64,000 bases of DNA from Verrucomicrobiota bacterium (GCA_016931415.1 JAFGEW010000133.1:1-64000); one strand, 5' to 3'. Shown: positions 28,773 through 59,607, counted from the first letter of the stretch. The notes: generated by a model not told the origin, from the sequence alone. Program-made: numbers and translations.

Positions 28773-29070
28773 ATGCGCTCCGGCCGGCGTCCGCAAAGGC
28801 GAACGCCTGCCGCAGACGGCACGGGCGCAGAACGACCTTCGGCTTTCATTTTTTGTCCTTTCACCTTCACAGTGGCTTTCCGTGCGCAAGACCGTTGGTA
28901 GGATGCGCAGGATCTGATTGACTTCTTGGGTTCACTCTGGTATCATTTTCGTCGAATGTGGCTCACTGAACCTCACTTGTGGCCATGTGGGGGGTGCGAG
29001 GAGATGCCCATCCGTGGGCGCAACCGCGTTCGCCACGCCAACGTGAGCCTGTCCTGGAATGAGGTGGAGG
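28773..29070. other. Leader of the subtilase gene
   Basis: 298 bp without a gene. It includes a CTTTCATTTTTTGTCCTTTCACC stretch near 28843-28865 and a possible -10-like TATCAT near 28941. No firm promoter assigned. Confidence 0.3.
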
Positions 29071-30486
29071 ATGGAGGCAGCACAGCGCGCGGGCCTTGCG
29101 GCGGCCCTTGTCCTCCTCATGGCCGTGTCCAGCAGCCGGGCGACTGAGTCCTCGGTCGATTTCGTCGACGCCGCGCAAGTCTGGTCATGGGGCTATGACG
29201 GCAGCGGCGTGATCGTCGGCTTGGTTGACGATGCCGTGGACATGAGCCATCCTGCCCTGCCGAACGTCTCCAACTTCGACTTCTCGGGAGCGGGTCTCTC
29301 TCCGAATTCCCACGCCACCAGGACGGCCGGCGTCATCTGTAGCACGGACGCCGTGCATCCCGGTGTCGCGCCCGGAGCCATGGTCTACGCGGGCAAGGCG
29401 CTGACGCGCGACGATACGGTCGAGGCGTTCTGCGGCCTCTACGATCTCGGCGCGCGTGTCTTCAACATGAGCTTCACGTTCAACGACATGCCCAACGACG
29501 GCTTCAACCAGATGAGCCTCTTCGCGGACTGGTTCGTGCGCGAGAAGGACGTACTCGTCGTCAAGTCGGCGGGCAACAACTACGACATCTCGGCACCGGG
29601 CGACGCCTTCAACGTTGTCACGGTCGGGCGAACGACTGCTGACTTCACACAGGTCTATCCCACCAGCGGCTCAGGGCCGCTGTCCGACGGGCGTTCGAAG
29701 CCCGACCTCGTCGCACCGGGCACGGATATCACGACCACGAACCCCGGCGGCGGGTTTGTCTCCGCATCGGGCACGAGCTACTCGGCCCCGCACGTCACAG
29801 GCGCGGCCGCACTGCTGCTCGACATCGCCGACACTGAAGGTCTCAGCACGAATCACAATGTCCTCAAGTCCGTGCTCATGACGGCCGCCCGCAAGGACGT
29901 ACTCGACAAGAACGGCGATGCGTGGTCCGCGGCGCTGGGTGTCCTTGACGAGGATAGCGGCGCCGGCCAACTCGATGTAGCCGAAGCGGCCGCCGTCTTT
30001 GGTTCCGGCGGTGCCGGGCCGGGAGCTGTTGGCCTGGCCGGCTGGGCGGAGGAGTCAGTCAGCGGCCTCGCGCTGGACGATGTCTTCAGCCTCAGCGCCG
30101 GCCAGACGATCGCGGCCGGCTCCGAGATCGCTGTAACCCTGTGCTGGGACCGCACGGTGCAGTGGCTTGACGACGGCGACGGCATCGTCGAGTACACAGA
30201 CACATTCCTGCCCGAGGCGCTGGACAATCTCGATCTATTCATCGTCGATGCATGGACGGGTGGCATCGTCGCCTCGTCAGAAAGCCTCGTCGACAACGTC
30301 GAGCACGTCTGGTTCACGTTCGAGCAGTCCGGCCGATACGACATCCGTGTATGTGCTGCGGGGTTGCAGAACGAGGTTTTGTACGGGCTTTCCTGGAGCG
30401 TATGTGCCGTTCCGGAGCCCGCGATGGTATGGTTACTCGTCGGGCTCGCGTTCGGGCTCGCATTCAGAGAGAAACGGCTTACTTGA
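29071..30486 (+). CDS. Subtilisin-like (S8) protease with PEP-CTERM tail
   Basis: 471 aa from the ATG at 29071, placed six bases after GAGG; an ATG at 29059 lacks a ribosome-binding site. Signal peptide to about residue 24. The catalytic triad is Asp53 (IVGLVDDAVD), His81 (SHATRTAGV; the usual HGTHVAG is HATRTAG) and Ser236 (SGTSYSAPHVTG); oxyanion Asn169 (KSAGNN). Residues about 310-445 are a beta-sandwich like those following many S8 domains. The C-terminus is VPEPAMVW plus a hydrophobic helix and REKR, a PEP-CTERM signal, so the enzyme is probably surface displayed. It is 28 bp upstream of a giant secreted protein and likely co-transcribed. Confidence 0.92.
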   Translation: MEAAQRAGLAAALVLLMAVSSSRATESSVDFVDAAQVWSWGYDGSGVIVGLVDDAVDMSHPALPNVSNFDFSGAGLSPNSHATRTAGVICSTDAVHPGVAPGAMVYAGKALTRDDTVEAFCGLYDLGARVFNMSFTFNDMPNDGFNQMSLFADWFVREKDVLVVKSAGNNYDISAPGDAFNVVTVGRTTADFTQVYPTSGSGPLSDGRSKPDLVAPGTDITTTNPGGGFVSASGTSYSAPHVTGAAALLLDIADTEGLSTNHNVLKSVLMTAARKDVLDKNGDAWSAALGVLDEDSGAGQLDVAEAAAVFGSGGAGPGAVGLAGWAEESVSGLALDDVFSLSAGQTIAAGSEIAVTLCWDRTVQWLDDGDGIVEYTDTFLPEALDNLDLFIVDAWTGGIVASSESLVDNVEHVWFTFEQSGRYDIRVCAAGLQNEVLYGLSWSVCAVPEPAMVWLLVGLAFGLAFREKRLT

Positions 30487-48100: not shown

Positions 48101-48883
48101 ATGAGCGACCCCGACATCAGCGACATCCTCGAAGAGTGGCCGTACGATCCTGACCGCAACGCGCGGATCGTCACCAACGCCGACGGCAGTCAGAAGCTGC
48201 AGATTCGCCTGCGCCTCGGTCTGCTCCAGATGGAGCTCGACGGCCGGCCCGACGCCCAGCGCCCCTACGGATTCGACACCGTGCTCGAGTACCAGCGGAA
48301 CAGCCTCGACGAGTACCGCGACGAACACGGGACCGACGAAGGCTTTGTGATCGACCACGACGCCTGGGAAGAGCTGAACAGCGAGGGCGTGCTCTTCTAC
48401 GAGCGCTACGTCGTGCTCTTCCAGCTAGGCGACTACGACCGCACCGCGCGCGACACGGCGCGCAACCTCGGCATGTTCGACCTTGTCAGGCAGTACGCCG
48501 AGCGCCCCGAGGACGTCACCGCTCTCGAGCAGTACCGGCCCTATCTCATCCGCATGAACGCCGCGGCGCTCGCCATGCAGCACATGCAGAACGATCGTCC
48601 CGACGACGCGCGCGATACGTTGCGCCGGGGCATCCGGCAGCTCGACGAGCTCGAGATGGTCCACACCTCCGTCTTCCAGGTTGAGCTCGACCGTGCGCGC
48701 TCGATGCTCGAGGGCATGCTGGACGACATCAAGGCCGACAAGGCCACGCCGAGCGAGCTCGACACGCTCCGGGGCGAGCTTGCCCGCGCCATTCGGGAGG
48801 AGCGCTACGAGGATGCCGCCAGTATCCGCGACCGTATCCGCCGCATCAGCGAACCCGGTTCGGAAGGGATGCCGGAGGGATGA
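48101..48883 (+). CDS. UVR (UvrB/UvrC) motif protein
   Basis: 260 aa, soluble and acidic. The C-terminal residues about 212-245 (ELDTLRGELARAIREERYEDAA, then SIRDRIRRI) are a UVR motif, the two-helix coiled hairpin by which UvrB and UvrC meet, also found in McsA and other regulators. The first 200 residues are helical with no known domain. No nuclease motif, so a regulator or adaptor rather than UvrC. Its end overlaps the next start by 4 bp (ATGA). Confidence 0.82.
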   Translation: MSDPDISDILEEWPYDPDRNARIVTNADGSQKLQIRLRLGLLQMELDGRPDAQRPYGFDTVLEYQRNSLDEYRDEHGTDEGFVIDHDAWEELNSEGVLFYERYVVLFQLGDYDRTARDTARNLGMFDLVRQYAERPEDVTALEQYRPYLIRMNAAALAMQHMQNDRPDDARDTLRRGIRQLDELEMVHTSVFQVELDRARSMLEGMLDDIKADKATPSELDTLRGELARAIREERYEDAASIRDRIRRISEPGSEGMPEG

Positions 48884-50469
48884 AGCCGATGACACGCGGG
48901 CGCAGACGATTCAGCGTGGCACCGGTTGCCGTTCTTGCGCTATGCGCCGTTGTCTTGCTGGCGCTTGCCTCGTGCTCGCCGGTCGTGCCCGCTGTCATAC
49001 AAAAGCCGGTGTGGCTCGTCGTGACGCGCCCGATGTTCGTCGAGCCGCTCGAACCGCTCGTTGCGCAGCGCTGCCGCCAGGGCTACGAGACCGTTGTGTC
49101 GACCGAGCCGCTCGCGGATGCGCTGCAGAGCCTCAGCCGCGCGCCCGAGTGCATCCTGATCGTCGGCGATCACGACGACACTGCCCTCGATGCGCCGTGG
49201 TGTGTGCCCACGTTCCGCCTCGTTAGCTCGTTCCACTACCCGGGCCGCCTGCCGATCTACTCGTGCGATATGCTGTTCGGTGACCTCGATGGCGACGGTG
49301 CGCCCGACGTGCCCGTGGGCCGCATCCCGGTCCGAACGGCCGGGGATCTCACGACTGTCGTTGACAAGATCCTCTGGTACGAGCAGCGCCCGCCGTCGCT
49401 CGACGACCTGCGCCTCCCGGTCTGGACGGGCAAGCCGGACTTCGGCGCCGCCACCGACAGCATGGTCGGCGCGTTCGTGCTCGCGACGCTTGCCGCCAAG
49501 GCCCATGGCTGGGAGGAACTCTGGTTGCTGACCGCCGACGAGCAACACCCGCTCTCATGCGACGCGAGCGACGAAGCGCCCCAGTTTATCGCACAAGTGC
49601 ACCGCGGCGGCGCGCTCGCGGCGATGATGGGCCACGGTCTGGATCAGTTCTTCGTCTCGCGGCGCGCCATAGGCACACCCAATGCAGAACCTCACGCGTA
49701 CACGATCCTGGATGCCTGGCGCGATTTCACCGAGGGGCGACCGGCCCCGCCGCTGTTCATCTTCGCCTGCTATTGCGGCGAGTTCTCGTCGCGGGCGCGG
49801 TCGCTTGCCGAGGTGTTCCTTCAGCGCCCCGCGGGGCCTGTGGCCGTCGTCGCCGCGACCGATCGCTCGCACCCGCTCATGAACTACTACGCGTCCGTGT
49901 GCCTGCTCCAGGCAATCGGTGGCGGCACGAAGCCGATCGGCGAGCTCTGGCTCGACGTCCAGCGGGGCGCCCTCGAGCAACGCGACCCCATCCTCGATCG
50001 CCTCGCAGTCAGCCTTGATAGCGACATTGCCGTTGTCAGCGATCTCGACGAGATCCGGGGCTCGCACCTGCTCATGTACGCCCTGCTCGGCGACCCCGCC
50101 ATGCCGCTGCGGCTGCCCGAGCGACTCGAGGTCACGGTCGAGCGGTGCGGGAATCCGGGCGAGTGGCGCTGGCGAGCCGAGAAGCCCCGGGGCGCCTTGA
50201 GCCTCCACGTCGGGCTTCGGCCGCAACAAACGCCGCTTGCACGCTCGCCCAAGCGCCTCACGCGAGAGGGTGCCCTCGACCGGCTCGCCAAGGCGAACAG
50301 CCGGTTCGTCTTCGCCACGATCGAGCAACTCGACGAGGGGCAACCGTGGGAAGGCGTCGTCACCGGCGAAGGCACGCTGCGCCTCGTCGCCATGAGCGGG
50401 GACAAGCTCTACGTCGCCACCATCGAGCTCAAGCCCGAATCCACGTCCGAGGCCAGTCACCCGGAGTAG
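48880..50469 (+). CDS. Gingipain-like (C25) cysteine protease lipoprotein
   Basis: 529 aa. A long basic N-terminus then a lipobox LASC, lipidated Cys32. The caspase-like C25 core includes SCDMLFGDLDGDGAPDVPVG (about 128-147; Ca2+-type Asp-rich turn and the VGRIPVRT motif after it), His252 in AMMGHGLDQFF and Cys297 in FIFACYCGEF, the expected His/Cys dyad. The Gly after Cys and the R in the VGRIP strand match gingipain relatives. C-terminal residues 400-529 are a beta domain. An inner or outer membrane-anchored, outward-facing protease is likely. Confidence 0.85.
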   Translation: MKPMTRGRRRFSVAPVAVLALCAVVLLALASCSPVVPAVIQKPVWLVVTRPMFVEPLEPLVAQRCRQGYETVVSTEPLADALQSLSRAPECILIVGDHDDTALDAPWCVPTFRLVSSFHYPGRLPIYSCDMLFGDLDGDGAPDVPVGRIPVRTAGDLTTVVDKILWYEQRPPSLDDLRLPVWTGKPDFGAATDSMVGAFVLATLAAKAHGWEELWLLTADEQHPLSCDASDEAPQFIAQVHRGGALAAMMGHGLDQFFVSRRAIGTPNAEPHAYTILDAWRDFTEGRPAPPLFIFACYCGEFSSRARSLAEVFLQRPAGPVAVVAATDRSHPLMNYYASVCLLQAIGGGTKPIGELWLDVQRGALEQRDPILDRLAVSLDSDIAVVSDLDEIRGSHLLMYALLGDPAMPLRLPERLEVTVERCGNPGEWRWRAEKPRGALSLHVGLRPQQTPLARSPKRLTREGALDRLAKANSRFVFATIEQLDEGQPWEGVVTGEGTLRLVAMSGDKLYVATIELKPESTSEASHPE

Positions 50470-53250: not shown

Positions 53251-53288
53251 AAAACGCCGACCCGGCTTCGTCGCCGGGTCGGCGTCTT
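53251..53288. terminator. Bidirectional terminator between convergent genes
   Basis: Stem ACGCCGACCCGG (53254-53265) / CCGGGTCGGCGT (53274-53285), 12 bp perfect, preceded by AAAA and followed by CTTAC. Situated between the plus-strand membrane gene and the minus-strand M60-like cluster. Confidence 0.8.
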
Positions 53289-53308: not shown

Positions 53309-54604
53309 CTACTCCATCTTCGGCGTTTCCTTCTCCGGCAGCACAATGCTCCCGACAGCCTCTTCGATCGGGTACTTGGCCTTCATCGCCTCGATGTCCT
53401 TATGCGTCACCGGCGCGCGCCAGAGCTGGAACACCGTCACGAGGTCGGCGCCCGTCGTCTCGCACAGGATCGCCGCCATGAGCCGGATCTTCTCCGTGGG
53501 CGTCTCGGGCTTGGCGATCCCGCGGTCCTCGAAGACCTTGTAGGTTCGGTACCACTTCTTGACCGGATCCCACCCGTACACTCGCGCCAGCCGCTGCAGG
53601 AAGGCGTGCTCGCAGAACCCGTCCTCCCATGAAATGGAGGGGTTGCTCAGGTACTTGTCGACCTCGAACAGGAACTGCGAATCCATACACTGCCTGCCGT
53701 CGAGCGGCATGTCCTTGACCGGGGCGGGGTAGACGGCGCGCTCGTCTTCGGGCCAGGGCGCCTTCCAGTCCTGGTCGGCGATTGCCTCGTAGGCGTAGAC
53801 CAGCTTGATGTTGGCCTGCCCCTCGCACGTGGTGCCGCCCCAGATGTACCAGTCGCCGTAGATGTCGTCGAAATCGTGGCCCATCTCGTGGATCCAGCCG
53901 AACGGCATCTCGTTACGGTTGACGATCGCCACCAGATCGTCCATGTACGTCGTGTCCATGATGATCGGATTGCCCGCGTACGCGTACCACGGGTGCGGCG
54001 GCGACTCCTTGATCACGATCACCGCGCCCCCGTATGGCGCGTACCCCGTCAGGTCCGCCATCGCCTCGTACGCCTGGTTGAGCCATCGCAACAGCCGCTC
54101 GCTGTTGTCACCCAGCGCCTTGTTGTGGGCGTCGGTGATATCGAACGAGACGTGCGTGCCCTCGACGAGCACCATCGGCTCGCTGATCACGGCCTCGGGC
54201 ACTTCGATGCGGAACGGCACTTCGAGCTGCTCGTCGCCCGCCTCGATCGTGTAGGTGCCGGTCCAAACCGGATCGCCCGGCTTGGCCTTGTCCACGGCGT
54301 CTGGATTGAGCCAGCCGATCTTGCTGACGACCGTCGCCTTGCCCGCAGGCAGATCGGCCGTGTCTTCGTCAGCGTCCGCTTCGCTGAACGGCTCGCCGTT
54401 GACCTCCCACAGGGCCGTCCATCCGACGATGCGCGCCGGCACGTTGCCGTCGTTCGTGAACGTGAACTTCACGGTGCCCCAGCCGCCCTTCATCCAGCCA
54501 TCCGGATGCACAAGCTCGGCCTTCATCGTTACTTGCGCCGTGGCCGTCGTGCAGACTGCAAGCAAACACACGAAGACGGCGGCGAAAACCCGCGTCAGCT
54601 TCAT
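53309..54604 (-). CDS. M60-like secreted metalloprotease (single module)
   Basis: 431 aa from the ATG at 54604, which opens a signal peptide (MKLTRVFAAVFVCLLAVCTT). Residues about 28-140 are a beta-sandwich starting LVHPDGWMKGGWGTVKFTF. Residues about 148-430 contain IKESPPHPWYAYAGNPIIMD and the zinc site WIHEMGHDFDD: His239, Glu240, His243, with Glu261 (TTCEGQANIK) as probable third ligand, i.e. an HExxH gluzincin arrangement resembling peptidase M60/enhancin. M60 enzymes cleave mucin-type glycoproteins; substrate here unknown. It is the last gene of a three-gene operon of paralogues and has only one copy of the module. Confidence 0.82.
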   Translation of the reverse strand: MKLTRVFAAVFVCLLAVCTTATAQVTMKAELVHPDGWMKGGWGTVKFTFTNDGNVPARIVGWTALWEVNGEPFSEADADEDTADLPAGKATVVSKIGWLNPDAVDKAKPGDPVWTGTYTIEAGDEQLEVPFRIEVPEAVISEPMVLVEGTHVSFDITDAHNKALGDNSERLLRWLNQAYEAMADLTGYAPYGGAVIVIKESPPHPWYAYAGNPIIMDTTYMDDLVAIVNRNEMPFGWIHEMGHDFDDIYGDWYIWGGTTCEGQANIKLVYAYEAIADQDWKAPWPEDERAVYPAPVKDMPLDGRQCMDSQFLFEVDKYLSNPSISWEDGFCEHAFLQRLARVYGWDPVKKWYRTYKVFEDRGIAKPETPTEKIRLMAAILCETTGADLVTVFQLWRAPVTHKDIEAMKAKYPIEEAVGSIVLPEKETPKME

Positions 54605-54643
54605 CAGATCCGTTCCTTTCACCGGGATATGAACGCGTTGCTG

Positions 54644-56986
54644 TCAGTTGCCCTTGGACTCGGGCAGCACGATGCCCTCGACAGCCTCTTCGATCGGATA
54701 CTTGACCTTGAGCGCCTCGATGTCCTCATACGTCACCGGCGCGCGCCAGAGCTGGAACATCGGCACGAGGTCCACGCCGGTCGTCTCGCACAGAACCGCC
54801 GCCATCAGCTTGATCTTGTCCTCCGGCTCCTTCGGGGCCTCGCAGCCCTTCTCCTCGAGAACCTTGAACGTGCGGTACCACTTCTTGACGGGGTCCCATC
54901 CATAGACGGCCGCGATCCGCTGCAGAAACACGTGCGCACAGAAACGATCTGTCCACGGAGTCGTCGGATCGGCCAGATACGCGTCCAGGTTGAAGATGAA
55001 CTGCTTGTCGACGTATTCCTTGCCGGTCACCAGCATGTCTCGCTCCGGCGCCATGTATGAGGCGCCCTCGTTCTGTCCCCAGGTCGTCTTCCAGTCCTGG
55101 GTCGGCATCGCCTCGTACGCGTAGACCACCTTGATGTTGGCATGCGCTTCGGAACACCCGTAGCTCCACATGTACCACTTGCCGTAGCGGCCATCGTCGG
55201 CATGATCGAAGTCATGAGCCAGCTCGTGGATCCAACCGAACACCATGTGGTTCTTGTTGACGAGCTCGACGAAGTTGTCCATGTGCGTCGTGTCCATGAT
55301 GATCGGATTGCCCGCGTAGGCGTAGTACGGATGATCGGGCGACTCGATGATCGTGATGGTCTTGCCGTCGTACGGCGTGTAGCCCGTCAGGTCCTGCATG
55401 ACCTCGTACGCCTCGTCGAGCCAGCGAATGAGCCGGTCGTTGCCCTCCTTGCCCAACGCGTCGTGATGCGTCTGCGTAATCTCGTAGGCCATGTGCTTGC
55501 CCTCGACGCGCACAAGCTTCTCGGCGATCACCGCCTCCGGCACGTCGAACTCCCACGGGATCACGAACTCGATGTCGCCGGTCCGGAACTTGGCTGTCCC
55601 GACCACGTGTGGCGTGGCCGAACCGAGCTGCTCGAGCAACTGCGGATCGAGCCCGCCCGTCTTGGTCAGCGTGGCCTCTTCGCCCGCCGGCACGACCACC
55701 TCGCCGTCATGGGTCCAGCCGGGATACTCGCCCTGCTCGTTGGGCTCCTCCCAATCGGCGATGAACGGCTTGTCGCCGATCATCCACCGCGCCTGCCAGA
55801 AGACCATCCTGGTTGGCAGCTCACCCTCGTTCTTGAACGTGAACAGAAGCTGCCCGTACCCTTCGCGCATCCAGCCGCCGGGCTGCTTGTTCGTGATGGA
55901 AAGCTTGACCAGGGCAGCCGCCGCCTCGGGCGACTCCGGCCGCGCGGCATCCGGGTTGGCGATGGGGAAGCGCCTGTACATCTCGGCCATCTTGCCCGCC
56001 GTCACCGGCATCCGCCAACGCTCGAAAGCGGGAACAATGGTTGCCACCAAGGCCTTCGAGTCGTCCAGTTGATCGGGCTTCCGCAGCGTGTCCTTGCCCA
56101 GTTCCTTGGCCTTCAGGTAGGCGGGATACCAGTCCTGATCAACCTGCTGTTGGAGCACCGCCGCGAGCAACACGATCTTGTCCGCGGCCGTCTCCGGAGG
56201 ATCGTAGCCAAGTGCCTGGAGGCGCGCGTACGTCCGGTACATCTGCTTGAACGGCTCCCAGCCGTACTCGCGCTGGAACCGCAGGAAAAACGAGTGGAGC
56301 TCGTCGCCCGTCATCGCGTCCCAGCCCCGGTCATGGTCGCCGAGATAGGCATCGCCGTAAAACAGGTACCGCGACTGCATCAACTGATAGCCGCTCAGCA
56401 GTTCGCGCTGATCGCCCCCGCGCAGGCGGGGCTGGTAAGGCGACGCGTCATTCCGGTCCCACGCGGCCTTGAACGTCTTGTCCGGCATCGTCTCGTAGGC
56501 GTAGTTGAGCTTCCAGCTCGCCTGCCAGTCGGCCGACGCGTCGTTCCACGTGAGCCATTCCGCGAAGCCGTCGTCGAAACTCCGGCCCAGTCCCCAAACG
56601 AGCTCGAACGGCATGATGTGGCTGTTTGCATCTTCAATGAGCCGGCCCATGATCCGCGTGTCCACGGCGATCGTCTTGCCCGCACGCACGGGCGCCAGGT
56701 CACGAGTCGCCTCCTCGATGCAGATCATCTCGCCGTCGTACGGCTGCCGGCCCGTGAGGTTCCACATCGCCTTGTACGCCTCGTCGAGCCACGCGAGCAC
56801 GCGCTCCTTCGACGCGAAGTCGGCATATCGCGACTTCATCACGGCCAGGCTGACGTATTCGCCCGTCGAGGTCACTAACGGCTCGGGCAGCCCGGGCTTC
56901 TCCGGCGCAGCATCCTGCGCCACCACGGCGCCGAGGGCCAGGATCAGAGCCACAGCCACGGCGCCACATACGGCTTTCGACTTCAT
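54644..56986 (-). CDS. M60-like metalloprotease with one inactive module
   Basis: 780 aa from the ATG at 56986 (signal peptide MKSKAVCGAVAVALILALGA). Module 1 (about 38-345) has the same fold markers (LAWLDEAYKAMWNLTG, WEPFKQMYRTYARL), but the HExxH position reads VWGLGRSFDD: His to Trp131, Glu to Gly132, His to Arg135; the third-ligand Glu is also lost (SADWQAS). Module 2 (about 360-780) is intact: IHELAHDFDH with His587, Glu588, His591 and Glu613 (GCSEAHANIK). A beta-sandwich (GGWMREGYGQLLFTF) precedes module 2. The dead module may bind substrate. Lies 39 bp upstream of the next gene and 17 bp downstream of the previous. Confidence 0.85.
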   Translation of the reverse strand: MKSKAVCGAVAVALILALGAVVAQDAAPEKPGLPEPLVTSTGEYVSLAVMKSRYADFASKERVLAWLDEAYKAMWNLTGRQPYDGEMICIEEATRDLAPVRAGKTIAVDTRIMGRLIEDANSHIMPFELVWGLGRSFDDGFAEWLTWNDASADWQASWKLNYAYETMPDKTFKAAWDRNDASPYQPRLRGGDQRELLSGYQLMQSRYLFYGDAYLGDHDRGWDAMTGDELHSFFLRFQREYGWEPFKQMYRTYARLQALGYDPPETAADKIVLLAAVLQQQVDQDWYPAYLKAKELGKDTLRKPDQLDDSKALVATIVPAFERWRMPVTAGKMAEMYRRFPIANPDAARPESPEAAAALVKLSITNKQPGGWMREGYGQLLFTFKNEGELPTRMVFWQARWMIGDKPFIADWEEPNEQGEYPGWTHDGEVVVPAGEEATLTKTGGLDPQLLEQLGSATPHVVGTAKFRTGDIEFVIPWEFDVPEAVIAEKLVRVEGKHMAYEITQTHHDALGKEGNDRLIRWLDEAYEVMQDLTGYTPYDGKTITIIESPDHPYYAYAGNPIIMDTTHMDNFVELVNKNHMVFGWIHELAHDFDHADDGRYGKWYMWSYGCSEAHANIKVVYAYEAMPTQDWKTTWGQNEGASYMAPERDMLVTGKEYVDKQFIFNLDAYLADPTTPWTDRFCAHVFLQRIAAVYGWDPVKKWYRTFKVLEEKGCEAPKEPEDKIKLMAAVLCETTGVDLVPMFQLWRAPVTYEDIEALKVKYPIEEAVEGIVLPESKGN

Positions 56987-57003
56987 TCTTCGGTTGTCCT
57001 TCC

Positions 57004-59607
57004 TTAGTCTGGGCGAGTCACGCTCTTCGGCTCGGGCAGCACGATGCTCGCAGCCGCTTCCACGATCCCGTACTGCTCCTGGAGTGCCTTGATCTCCTCG
57101 TGCGTGATCGGCACACGCCAGCGCCGGACGGCCGGAACAAGGTCCACACCCGTCGTGGCGCACAAGATCGCCGTGAACATCCGCACGCGGTCGATCAACG
57201 GCGGATCGAGCTCGGGCCACGGCTGCCCCTTCCTCGAGATGATCTCAGCCGTCCGGTAATACTTCTTCACCACGTCCCAGCCGTATATCCGCGCCAGCCG
57301 CTGCAGGAACACGTGCTCACAGAACGAGTCCTCCCAGCGCTGGTCGGGGTTGGCCATATCGTCGTCGCGCGCGTAGAGAAACTGCTTGTCCATGCACTCG
57401 CCGCCATCGAGCATGATCCCCTCGGCAGGCGCCGGGTACATCGCGCCCTTGTCGAGGCCCCACTCGGCCTTCCAGTACGGGTCCGAGATCGTGTTGTACG
57501 CGTAGACAACCTTGATGTTGGCCTGGCTCTCCAGCCCCAGCGCGTACCAGTCCGGATGAACGTAGTCGCAGATGTCGAAGTCGTGCCCAAGCTCGTGGAT
57601 CCACCCGAACGGCAGATCGCCCCGCTTGATCGACTCGACGAACGCGTCCATGTAGGTCGTGTCCATGATGATCGGATTGCCCGCATAGGCGTAGTAGGGG
57701 TGCGGCGGCGACTCGATGATCGTGATGATCTTGCCGTCGTACGGGATGTAGCCCGTCAGGTCCTGCATCGCTTCATACGCGTGGTCGAGCAACGCGATGA
57801 GCCGCTCGTTGCCCTCCTTGCCCAATGCGTCATGGTGTGTCTGGGTGATCTCGTACGCCATGTGTTTGCCCTCGACGCGTACGAGCTTCTCCTTGATGAC
57901 CGCCGCGGGCACCTCGATCCGCCACGGCATCTCGAGCCGGTAGTCGGCCATCTGCACCGTGAACGTGCCCATCCAGACCGGTGCGTTCGGCGCCGCCGCG
58001 TCCACCACCGCCGGATCGAGCCACCCGAGTTTGGTCACGACAGCGCTCTCGCCCGCCGGCACGACCATCACGTCCTCGTCGCTCGCGGGCCCCTCGTCGC
58101 TTTCGGGCACGTACGGCTTGCCGTTGGTCTCCCACCGCGCGTTCCACGCGGTGATCGTGGCCGGCAGCGTGCCCGTGTTCTCGAACGTATAGCGGATCTG
58201 GCCCCAGCCGCTCCTCATCCAGCCGTCCTTCTGGACGCGCTCGACGGTCAACTTGATCAAGTCCGCCGCCGCTTCAGCCGACGCCGGTCTGACCGCTTCA
58301 TCCAGGTTGGCGATGGGGTAGCGCTTGTTCATCTCGGCAACGCGCTGCTCGGTCACCGGCATCCGCCATTTCTGGAACACCGGCACGAGGTCCACGCCGG
58401 TGGTATGCGACAGGATCGCCGCGATGAGGTTGATCTTGTCCTCGGCCGTCTCGGGCTTCGCAAGCCCCAGCTCCTCGAACCGCACGTAGGTCCGATACCA
58501 CTGCTTGAACGGCTCCCATCCGTACTGGTCCTTGATCCGCAGGAAGAACGAGTGCAGATCGTCGCTCTGCATCGTGTCCCACGTCCGGTTTGGGTCGGCC
58601 AGATACGGATCGCCGAAGAACAGGAAGAACGAATCCATGAACTGCGGACCCGAGACAACGACCTCATCACCGGGCGGGTTGAAGCCTGCACTGTCGCTCC
58701 CGCCCCACTTGGCCTTGTAGTCCTGGTCGGGCATCACCTCGTAGGCGTAGTTGAGCTTCCAGTTCGCCTGCCACTCGCACGAGCCGCCGTCCCAGATGTA
58801 CCACTCGCCGATCACATCATCGAAATCATGCCCCAGCTCGTGAGTCCACCCGAACGGCATGAAGCCCGCGTCAATATCCTCGACAAAACCCTTCAACGAC
58901 CTCGAGCTCATCACGATCGGATTGCCCGCGTAGGCATACCAGGGGTGCGACGGGGATTCCCGGATGAGCACGTAGTCGCCGTTGTACGGCCGGTGGCCCG
59001 TGAGGTCCCACATCGCCTTGTAGCTCTCGTTGAGCCACGTGAGAAGCCGCTCCTTCGACTTGAAGCCCTCGTAGCGCGACTTCATCAGCGCGTAGCCGAT
59101 GTATTCGCCCTTCATTTCCACGAGCGGCTCGGGCAGCACGGCTTCGGGCACCGCGTACTGCCACGCCAGCTCGGTTGTCTTGTCGCCCTGCTCGATGGTG
59201 AACGTGCCCTTCCAGACGGGCGCCTCCGGCGCCGCCGCATCGAGGGCCTTCGGCGCCAGCCAGCCGACCCTGTCCACCTTGACCTCCTGCCCCGGCGGCA
59301 GGTCTACCTTCTCGTCGTCTCTCGCTATGCCGTCGTCCTCGCCGTCGCTCAGGTCTACGGCTTCACCCTTGGCCTCCCAGTGCGCCGTCCAGCCGACGAT
59401 CCTCGCCGGGGTGTCCGTGTTGTTGGTGAACGTGAAAGCCAGACAGCCCCAGCCCTCTCTCATCCACCCGTCAGGCGGATCGCTCGTAATCGTCATGGTG
59501 ATTGGCTCGGTCGCCGCCGCGTCGGCCTGCGCTGTCCACGCAACACCTGCCAGCACGACACCGAGCAGAATGGTCCACAGCACTGGTGCAGTTCTCATCG
59601 CAGACAT
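57004..59607 (-). CDS. M60-like metalloprotease with two intact modules
   Basis: 867 aa from the ATG at 59607, preceded by AAAGGA; signal peptide to about residue 28. Two copies of [beta-sandwich + HExxH module]: sandwich 1 PPDGWMREGWGCLAFTFTN, module 1 site GWTHELGHDFDD (His256, Glu257, His260, third Glu278 in SCEWQAN); sandwich 2 DGWMRSGWGQIRYTFEN, module 2 site GWIHELGHDFDI (His671, Glu672, His675, Glu693 in LESQANIK). Both halves share ESP(S/P)HP(W/Y)YAYAGNP. First gene of the operon and the only one with two complete zinc sites. Confidence 0.85.
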   Translation of the reverse strand: MSAMRTAPVLWTILLGVVLAGVAWTAQADAAATEPITMTITSDPPDGWMREGWGCLAFTFTNNTDTPARIVGWTAHWEAKGEAVDLSDGEDDGIARDDEKVDLPPGQEVKVDRVGWLAPKALDAAAPEAPVWKGTFTIEQGDKTTELAWQYAVPEAVLPEPLVEMKGEYIGYALMKSRYEGFKSKERLLTWLNESYKAMWDLTGHRPYNGDYVLIRESPSHPWYAYAGNPIVMSSRSLKGFVEDIDAGFMPFGWTHELGHDFDDVIGEWYIWDGGSCEWQANWKLNYAYEVMPDQDYKAKWGGSDSAGFNPPGDEVVVSGPQFMDSFFLFFGDPYLADPNRTWDTMQSDDLHSFFLRIKDQYGWEPFKQWYRTYVRFEELGLAKPETAEDKINLIAAILSHTTGVDLVPVFQKWRMPVTEQRVAEMNKRYPIANLDEAVRPASAEAAADLIKLTVERVQKDGWMRSGWGQIRYTFENTGTLPATITAWNARWETNGKPYVPESDEGPASDEDVMVVPAGESAVVTKLGWLDPAVVDAAAPNAPVWMGTFTVQMADYRLEMPWRIEVPAAVIKEKLVRVEGKHMAYEITQTHHDALGKEGNERLIALLDHAYEAMQDLTGYIPYDGKIITIIESPPHPYYAYAGNPIIMDTTYMDAFVESIKRGDLPFGWIHELGHDFDICDYVHPDWYALGLESQANIKVVYAYNTISDPYWKAEWGLDKGAMYPAPAEGIMLDGGECMDKQFLYARDDDMANPDQRWEDSFCEHVFLQRLARIYGWDVVKKYYRTAEIISRKGQPWPELDPPLIDRVRMFTAILCATTGVDLVPAVRRWRVPITHEEIKALQEQYGIVEAAASIVLPEPKSVTRPD

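Follow-up and report, generated by a model that had tools for sequence, protein, structure and literature searches.

A putative small operon of divergent M60-type metallopeptidases, one with a predicted dead domain, in a Verrucomicrobiota bacterium

Organization of the locus

The window is a 64,000-nucleotide stretch of DNA (64% GC) from a Verrucomicrobiota bacterium; within it, positions 53309-59607 are filled by three minus-strand genes (Table 1), with starts at 59607, 56986 and 54604 and intergenic gaps of 17 bp between genes 1 and 2 and 39 bp between genes 2 and 3. Both the coordinates and the gaps are exactly those given in the earlier note, which described three tandem genes here. GC3 coding bias is strong in each of the three genes and amounts to 0.86-0.90 per module. 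Purine-rich ribosome-binding sequences are seen by eye upstream of genes 2 and 3; the residues after each of the three starts are hydrophobic and include a plausible signal-peptidase site, also judged by eye, and all three proteins are predicted on this basis to be secreted. A 51-base segment 3' of gene 3 folds at -33.7 kcal/mol into a hairpin resembling an intrinsic terminator; the terminator pattern scan does not list it, perhaps as the stem extends into the T tail. The promoter scan found no sigma-70-like promoter for the operon. The three genes are considered to form a small operon and would presumably be co-transcribed.

Table 1. Features of the three-gene operon, with positions counted from the first letter of the window
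Feature	Position	Strand	Description
Gene 1	57004-59607	-	867 aa, predicted secreted; domains 1a and 1b; PF13402 37 bits
Domain 1a	58291-59607	-	beta-sandwich and M60 catalytic domain
Zinc motif HELGH, domain 1a	58828-58842	-	HELGH-X17-E; from sequence
Domain 1b	57007-58290	-	beta-sandwich and M60 catalytic domain
Zinc motif HELGH, domain 1b	57583-57597	-	HELGH-X17-E; from sequence
Gene 2	54644-56986	-	780 aa, predicted secreted; 2a (predicted dead) and 2b (beta-sandwich and intact M60); PF13402 42.1 bits, from 2b
Domain 2a	55943-56986	-	first of gene 2; signal peptide directly before M60-fold predicted pseudopeptidase; no sandwich; insertion of about 30 aa; no active-site residues
WGLGR in place of HExxH, domain 2a	56582-56596	-	from sequence
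Zinc motif HELAH, domain 2b	55214-55228	-	HELAH-X21-E; from sequence
Gene 3	53309-54604	-	431 aa, predicted secreted; one beta-sandwich (aa 25-134) and one intact M60 catalytic domain
AYAGNP substrate-strand motif, gene 3	53966-53983	-	aa 208-213; aligns with MHSGYP of canonical M60
Zinc motif HEMGH, gene 3	53876-53890	-	aa 239-243; third ligand Glu261, Asn265; from sequence and alignment
Intrinsic-terminator-like hairpin after gene 3	53251-53288	-	38 bp, T-rich stretch behind

Domain architecture and active sites

The three proteins comprise five domains of one fold (1a, 1b, 2a, 2b and 3), distributed 2+2+1 over genes 1, 2 and 3, with catalytic parts that share 30-61% pairwise identity. Alignment with relatives reveals, in four of the five units (1a, 1b, 2b and 3), a beta-sandwich at the N-terminus and a catalytic domain behind it; the same four have intact active sites. 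Their zinc motif is HExxH-X(17,17,21,17)-E, in the order 1a, 1b, 2b and 3; two histidines and one glutamate would hold the zinc. The AlphaFold model of gene 3 (pLDDT 83.2) features strands over residues 25-134 and then the catalytic part, in which HExxH (239-243) lies on one helix and Glu261 and Asn265 on another. Every domain matches the subfamily profile, which includes the intact domains of the window and excludes 2a, at E < 1e-79, and 1a and 2a alone align with 46% identity at 288 bits; chance likeness among the domains is therefore excluded.

Domain 2a departs from this plan. The ESPxHPxYAYAGNP block of the other domains is represented by ATRDLAPVRAGKT, with the AYAGNP strand lost; the third-ligand Glu is replaced by Asp, and the Asn four residues beyond it (E+4) by Ser. 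Eleven intact members of the family have 35 invariant columns in the catalytic part, of which 2a retains 23; nine of the 12 losses are in the active site (A208, Y209, G236, W237, H239, E240, H243, E261 and N265), and the other three changes are conservative (F311Y, L388I and Y411F). The domain runs in frame through 348 codons with a GC3 of 0.86 and contains neither stop nor frameshift. Its model has a pLDDT of 74.5 and finds M60 structures as its best Foldseek matches; searched alone against Pfam, it gives no match. With its losses centred on the active site rather than scattered, 2a is predicted from sequence to be a pseudopeptidase, and the candidate reading that all five modules are active is rejected.

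The earlier note had proposed five copies of a beta-sandwich plus HExxH unit, arranged 2+2+1 and built from one repeating module, and much of this stands: there are five domains of one fold in that arrangement, and four of them are such modules. Sandwiches and HExxH motifs, however, number four each, with 2a a sandwich-less and apparently dead remnant. The statement that all five keep the ESP/SHPxYAYAGNP and HExxHDFD blocks fails at 2a, and the spacing given for the third-ligand Glu, 17-25 residues on, is close for 1a, 1b, 2b and 3.

Relationship to the M60 family

All three proteins score above the gathering cut-off of 25.8 bits for Pfam PF13402 (Peptidase_M60), at 37.0, 42.1 and 29.5 bits for genes 1, 2 and 3; taken as single domains, 2b reaches 43.1 bits, 1a (25.0) and 1b (16) fall under the cut-off, and 2a has no score. 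The alignment to the profile is nearly end to end, covering positions 28-274 of 275 in gene 3 and 29-274 in gene 2. The gluzincin pattern of the M60 family, HEXXHX(8,28)E (PMC3267712), fits 1a, 1b, 2b and 3 and fails in 2a. The same genome encodes a second, canonical M60 protein (L032:1877-4282, on G000:C13), which scores 271 bits to PF13402 and carries M60-like_N (PF17291); that N-terminal domain has no match in the three operon proteins. Compared with this canonical protein, hhalign returns 97.6% (E 4.5e-12) with the HExxH, the Glu ligand and the E+4 Asn aligned; in this alignment the AYAGNP block takes the place of the HSGYP strand found in ordinary M60 proteins, and comparison with the literature suggests that it is the active-site strand.

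Structure comparison points the same way: M60 structures rank first in the fold search for the models of both gene 3 and 2a, with modest TM-scores of 0.3-0.5. For gene 3 the lowest E-value among the PDB matches (1.5e-9) belongs to the Bacillus M60-like protein 4fca/5ev7, and ZmpB/ZmpC are within the top 20 matches. By sequence, gene 3 on its own matches nothing in the PDB; profile searches of the PDB find mainly the same Bacillus protein, at 0.0012-0.02. The identification as M60-like proteases made in the earlier note is thus borne out by the PF13402 scores, the hhalign comparison and the fold matches. Its further suggestion of a distinct family, to be refuted by a profile search leading to a well-described family with a known substrate, holds in part: the proteins constitute a divergent and rare subfamily on the margin of PF13402 and not a new family, and the assignment reaches the family without extending to a substrate. 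The operon proteins are probably a divergent M60 subfamily of secreted zinc metallopeptidases, predicted to be glycopeptidases, that has expanded in tandem and includes one dead domain.

Sugar pocket

The S1' GalNAc-binding set of M60 O-glycopeptidases consists of Trp, Gly, Asn/Gln and Arg; in AM0627 the GalNAc is bound by Asn347 (PMC9325726), to which the E+4 Asn of the intact window domains corresponds. Counted from the motif, these domains also retain the Gly at H-3; at H-4, however, all of them have Phe in place of the Trp that contacts GalNAc in characterised enzymes. Near the position of the conserved Arg the window domains have Lys at E+20, an equivalence made by counting only; the Arg counterpart is uncertain. 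The relatives from Arenibacter and Aureibaculum have Arg at E+20 and, again, Phe at H-4; in the relatives from the phylum, Trp is present at H-4 in one of two gene types, the first of each tandem pair. The glycan pocket appears to be partly retained and partly altered, and sugar preference is not readable from the sequence. A separate M60 subfamily whose pocket, re-shaped by Phe for Trp and an uncertain Arg, reads some glycan different from mucin-type GalNAc, and in which the dead domain has been retained to regulate the live domain fused to it or to hold substrate, is a tentative possibility.

Genomic context and predicted function

Each standard unit couples a beta-sandwich at its N-terminus to a gluzincin domain, whose HExxH Glu would activate water; glycan and peptide would be held by the conserved Asn together with the strand that ends in AYAGNP, and the proteins would most likely cut the backbone of extracellular glycoproteins beside sugar-bearing Ser/Thr. 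Single-copy relatives with 33-35% identity over the full length are found in Arenibacter aquaticus (L004) and Aureibaculum marinum (L005). In both species the M60 gene has a sulfatase on one side and a GH63/trehalase-like glycosidase on the other and comes after NAGLU and GH20, with identical gene order; the Arenibacter locus additionally contains a SusD-like protein and a second GH20. Loci of this type would dismantle sulfated, N-acetylhexosamine-rich glycans, a setting in which a backbone-cutting glycopeptidase would fit.

The genome of the window (98.9% complete) gave no match to NAGLU or GH20, the partner enzymes present in the relatives' locus, in searches that did find matches in control genomes; four sulfatases are located elsewhere in it. 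Searches for GH101 and GH84 gave zero matches in this genome and zero in the controls too. No glycan genes adjoin the operon, the flanks being PolX, an HD-domain protein, a C25 peptidase and others, and the candidate placement of the operon within a local glycan-utilisation locus is unsupported. The C25 peptidase is gingipain-type and is encoded 3 kb from the operon (48880-50469, plus strand), with a UVR-motif gene before it; a subtilase (S8) whose C-terminus carries a weak PEP-CTERM signal is encoded at 29059-30486, plus strand. The dedicated glycoprotein-degrading system envisaged in the earlier note is plausible in view of the glycan loci of the relatives, but "dedicated" finds no local support. 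Glycoprotein breakdown is the best guess for function, based on the family and the relatives.

The missing GH20, NAGLU and neighbouring glycan genes, the other predicted proteases (C25 and S8) in the same window, and the exchange of Trp for Phe with no certain pocket Arg would also suit secreted M60-fold proteases that have moved out of the O-glycan niche, as general or peptide-specific scavengers of protein or cell-envelope debris for which GalNAc at P1' is no longer needed. This is considered unlikely, given that both the Asn at E+4 and the Gly at H-3 are retained and that the nearest named relatives, which have the same Phe, reside in a glycan-utilisation locus; furthermore, the characterised bacterial PF13402 enzymes described in the publications consulted are all O-glycan directed.

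Origin and distribution

Tree support is 95/93 for the grouping of 1a with 2a and 100/100 for that of 1b, 2b and 3. A two-domain ancestor is the most likely source of genes 1 and 2; in the simplest history an ancestral gene of the 1a-1b type would have been duplicated, and gene 3 would derive from the second domain. The placement of 2a with 1a is less sure than the support values imply, because 2a has the longest branch of the tree (0.88). After the duplication 2a would have lost its active site and its sandwich, keeping the scaffold, and would now be a pseudopeptidase domain tethered to the active 2b.

The same losses, together with the long branch and a relatively high dN/dS of 0.65 against 1a, could instead be those of a decaying array of paralogues, in which gene 3 and perhaps 1a alone are useful and 2a is in early gene death without function. 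Such decay is judged quite improbable: the frame of 2a is open over all 348 codons with coding bias, signal peptide and most of the invariant residues kept, the losses cluster in the active site, and 1b, 2b and 3 hold pairwise dN/dS values of 0.39-0.49. Weakest of all, and rejected, is a new metallopeptidase family that shares only HExxH with M60; the low PF13402 scores, a search of NCBIfam with no meaningful match and no entry for these proteins, and the PDB sequence search with gene 3 could be taken to favour it, yet the near end-to-end profile alignment, the hhalign result and the top fold ranking of M60 entries for live and dead domain make it extremely improbable. The reading of a divergent M60 subfamily with one dead domain is preferred.

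A search of the phylum finds a match in eight of 44 genomes, one of them (G001) weak only; G002, G025, G029, G034, G037 and G041 carry the same subfamily, as one gene, as two adjacent genes or as a fragment. Among 400 genomes sampled from the Arenibacter family there is none beyond the two known loci. From these counts the subfamily is sparsely distributed; tandem copies are recurrent, appearing as gene pairs in other genomes of the phylum. The two-domain chain and the dead domain are found, among the genomes examined, in this window only. In G034 the M60 pair and its surroundings are present on two contigs (L023, G034:C4, and L024, G034:C6) with identical match scores, either a true duplication or an assembly artefact. 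In the phylum relatives L023 and L025-L028 the M60 genes adjoin a gene identified by eye as a putative membrane pyrophosphatase, and in most a panC-type-looking gene is close by.

Comparison with known systems and significance

The PF13402 O-glycopeptidases (BT4244, AM0627, ZmpB/ZmpC, IMPa and the BcM60 enzymes) share with the operon proteins HExxH-X(8,28)-E, the E+4 Asn, the H-3 Gly and secretion, which for the operon proteins is predicted; AM0627 has an Ig-like domain ahead of its catalytic domain, similar to the beta-sandwich layout seen here, and expansion is likewise known from B. caccae, which has 16 M60 paralogues. The window proteins differ in reaching only about 30-42 bits to the profile, in the Phe at H-4, in the AYAGNP strand motif and a family-specific Lys at E+6, in having neither PF17291 nor a recognised CBM, and in the presence of two M60 domains per polypeptide, one domain predicted to be dead. 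An inactive metallopeptidase domain chained to active ones is also found in carboxypeptidase D (PMC11266112), which belongs to an unrelated family and provides an analogy only. The M60 genes of Arenibacter aquaticus and Aureibaculum marinum have the sandwich and catalytic layout and the FGWIHEMGHDFD and AYAG motifs in common with the operon; they are single-copy and single-domain within a NAGLU/GH20/sulfatase locus, whereas the operon stands alone. The tandem pairs of the same phylum (G029 and G034) are likewise two adjacent secreted genes of the same subfamily; unlike in the operon, each of their genes encodes one domain only, HExxH is intact, the canonical Trp occupies H-4 in one of the two types, and a putative membrane pyrophosphatase gene lies beside them.

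M60 enzymes are well known as mucinases and are used as tools in glycoproteomics. Most of the M60 sequence space is uncharacterised (PMC13355702). The subfamily described here lies at the edge of the profile and outside the well-studied gut genera, and it appears to combine a changed sugar pocket with a natural pair of live and dead domains; if active, it could supply proteases with a different glycan preference, and the live/dead pair could be used to learn the role of a dead M60 domain.
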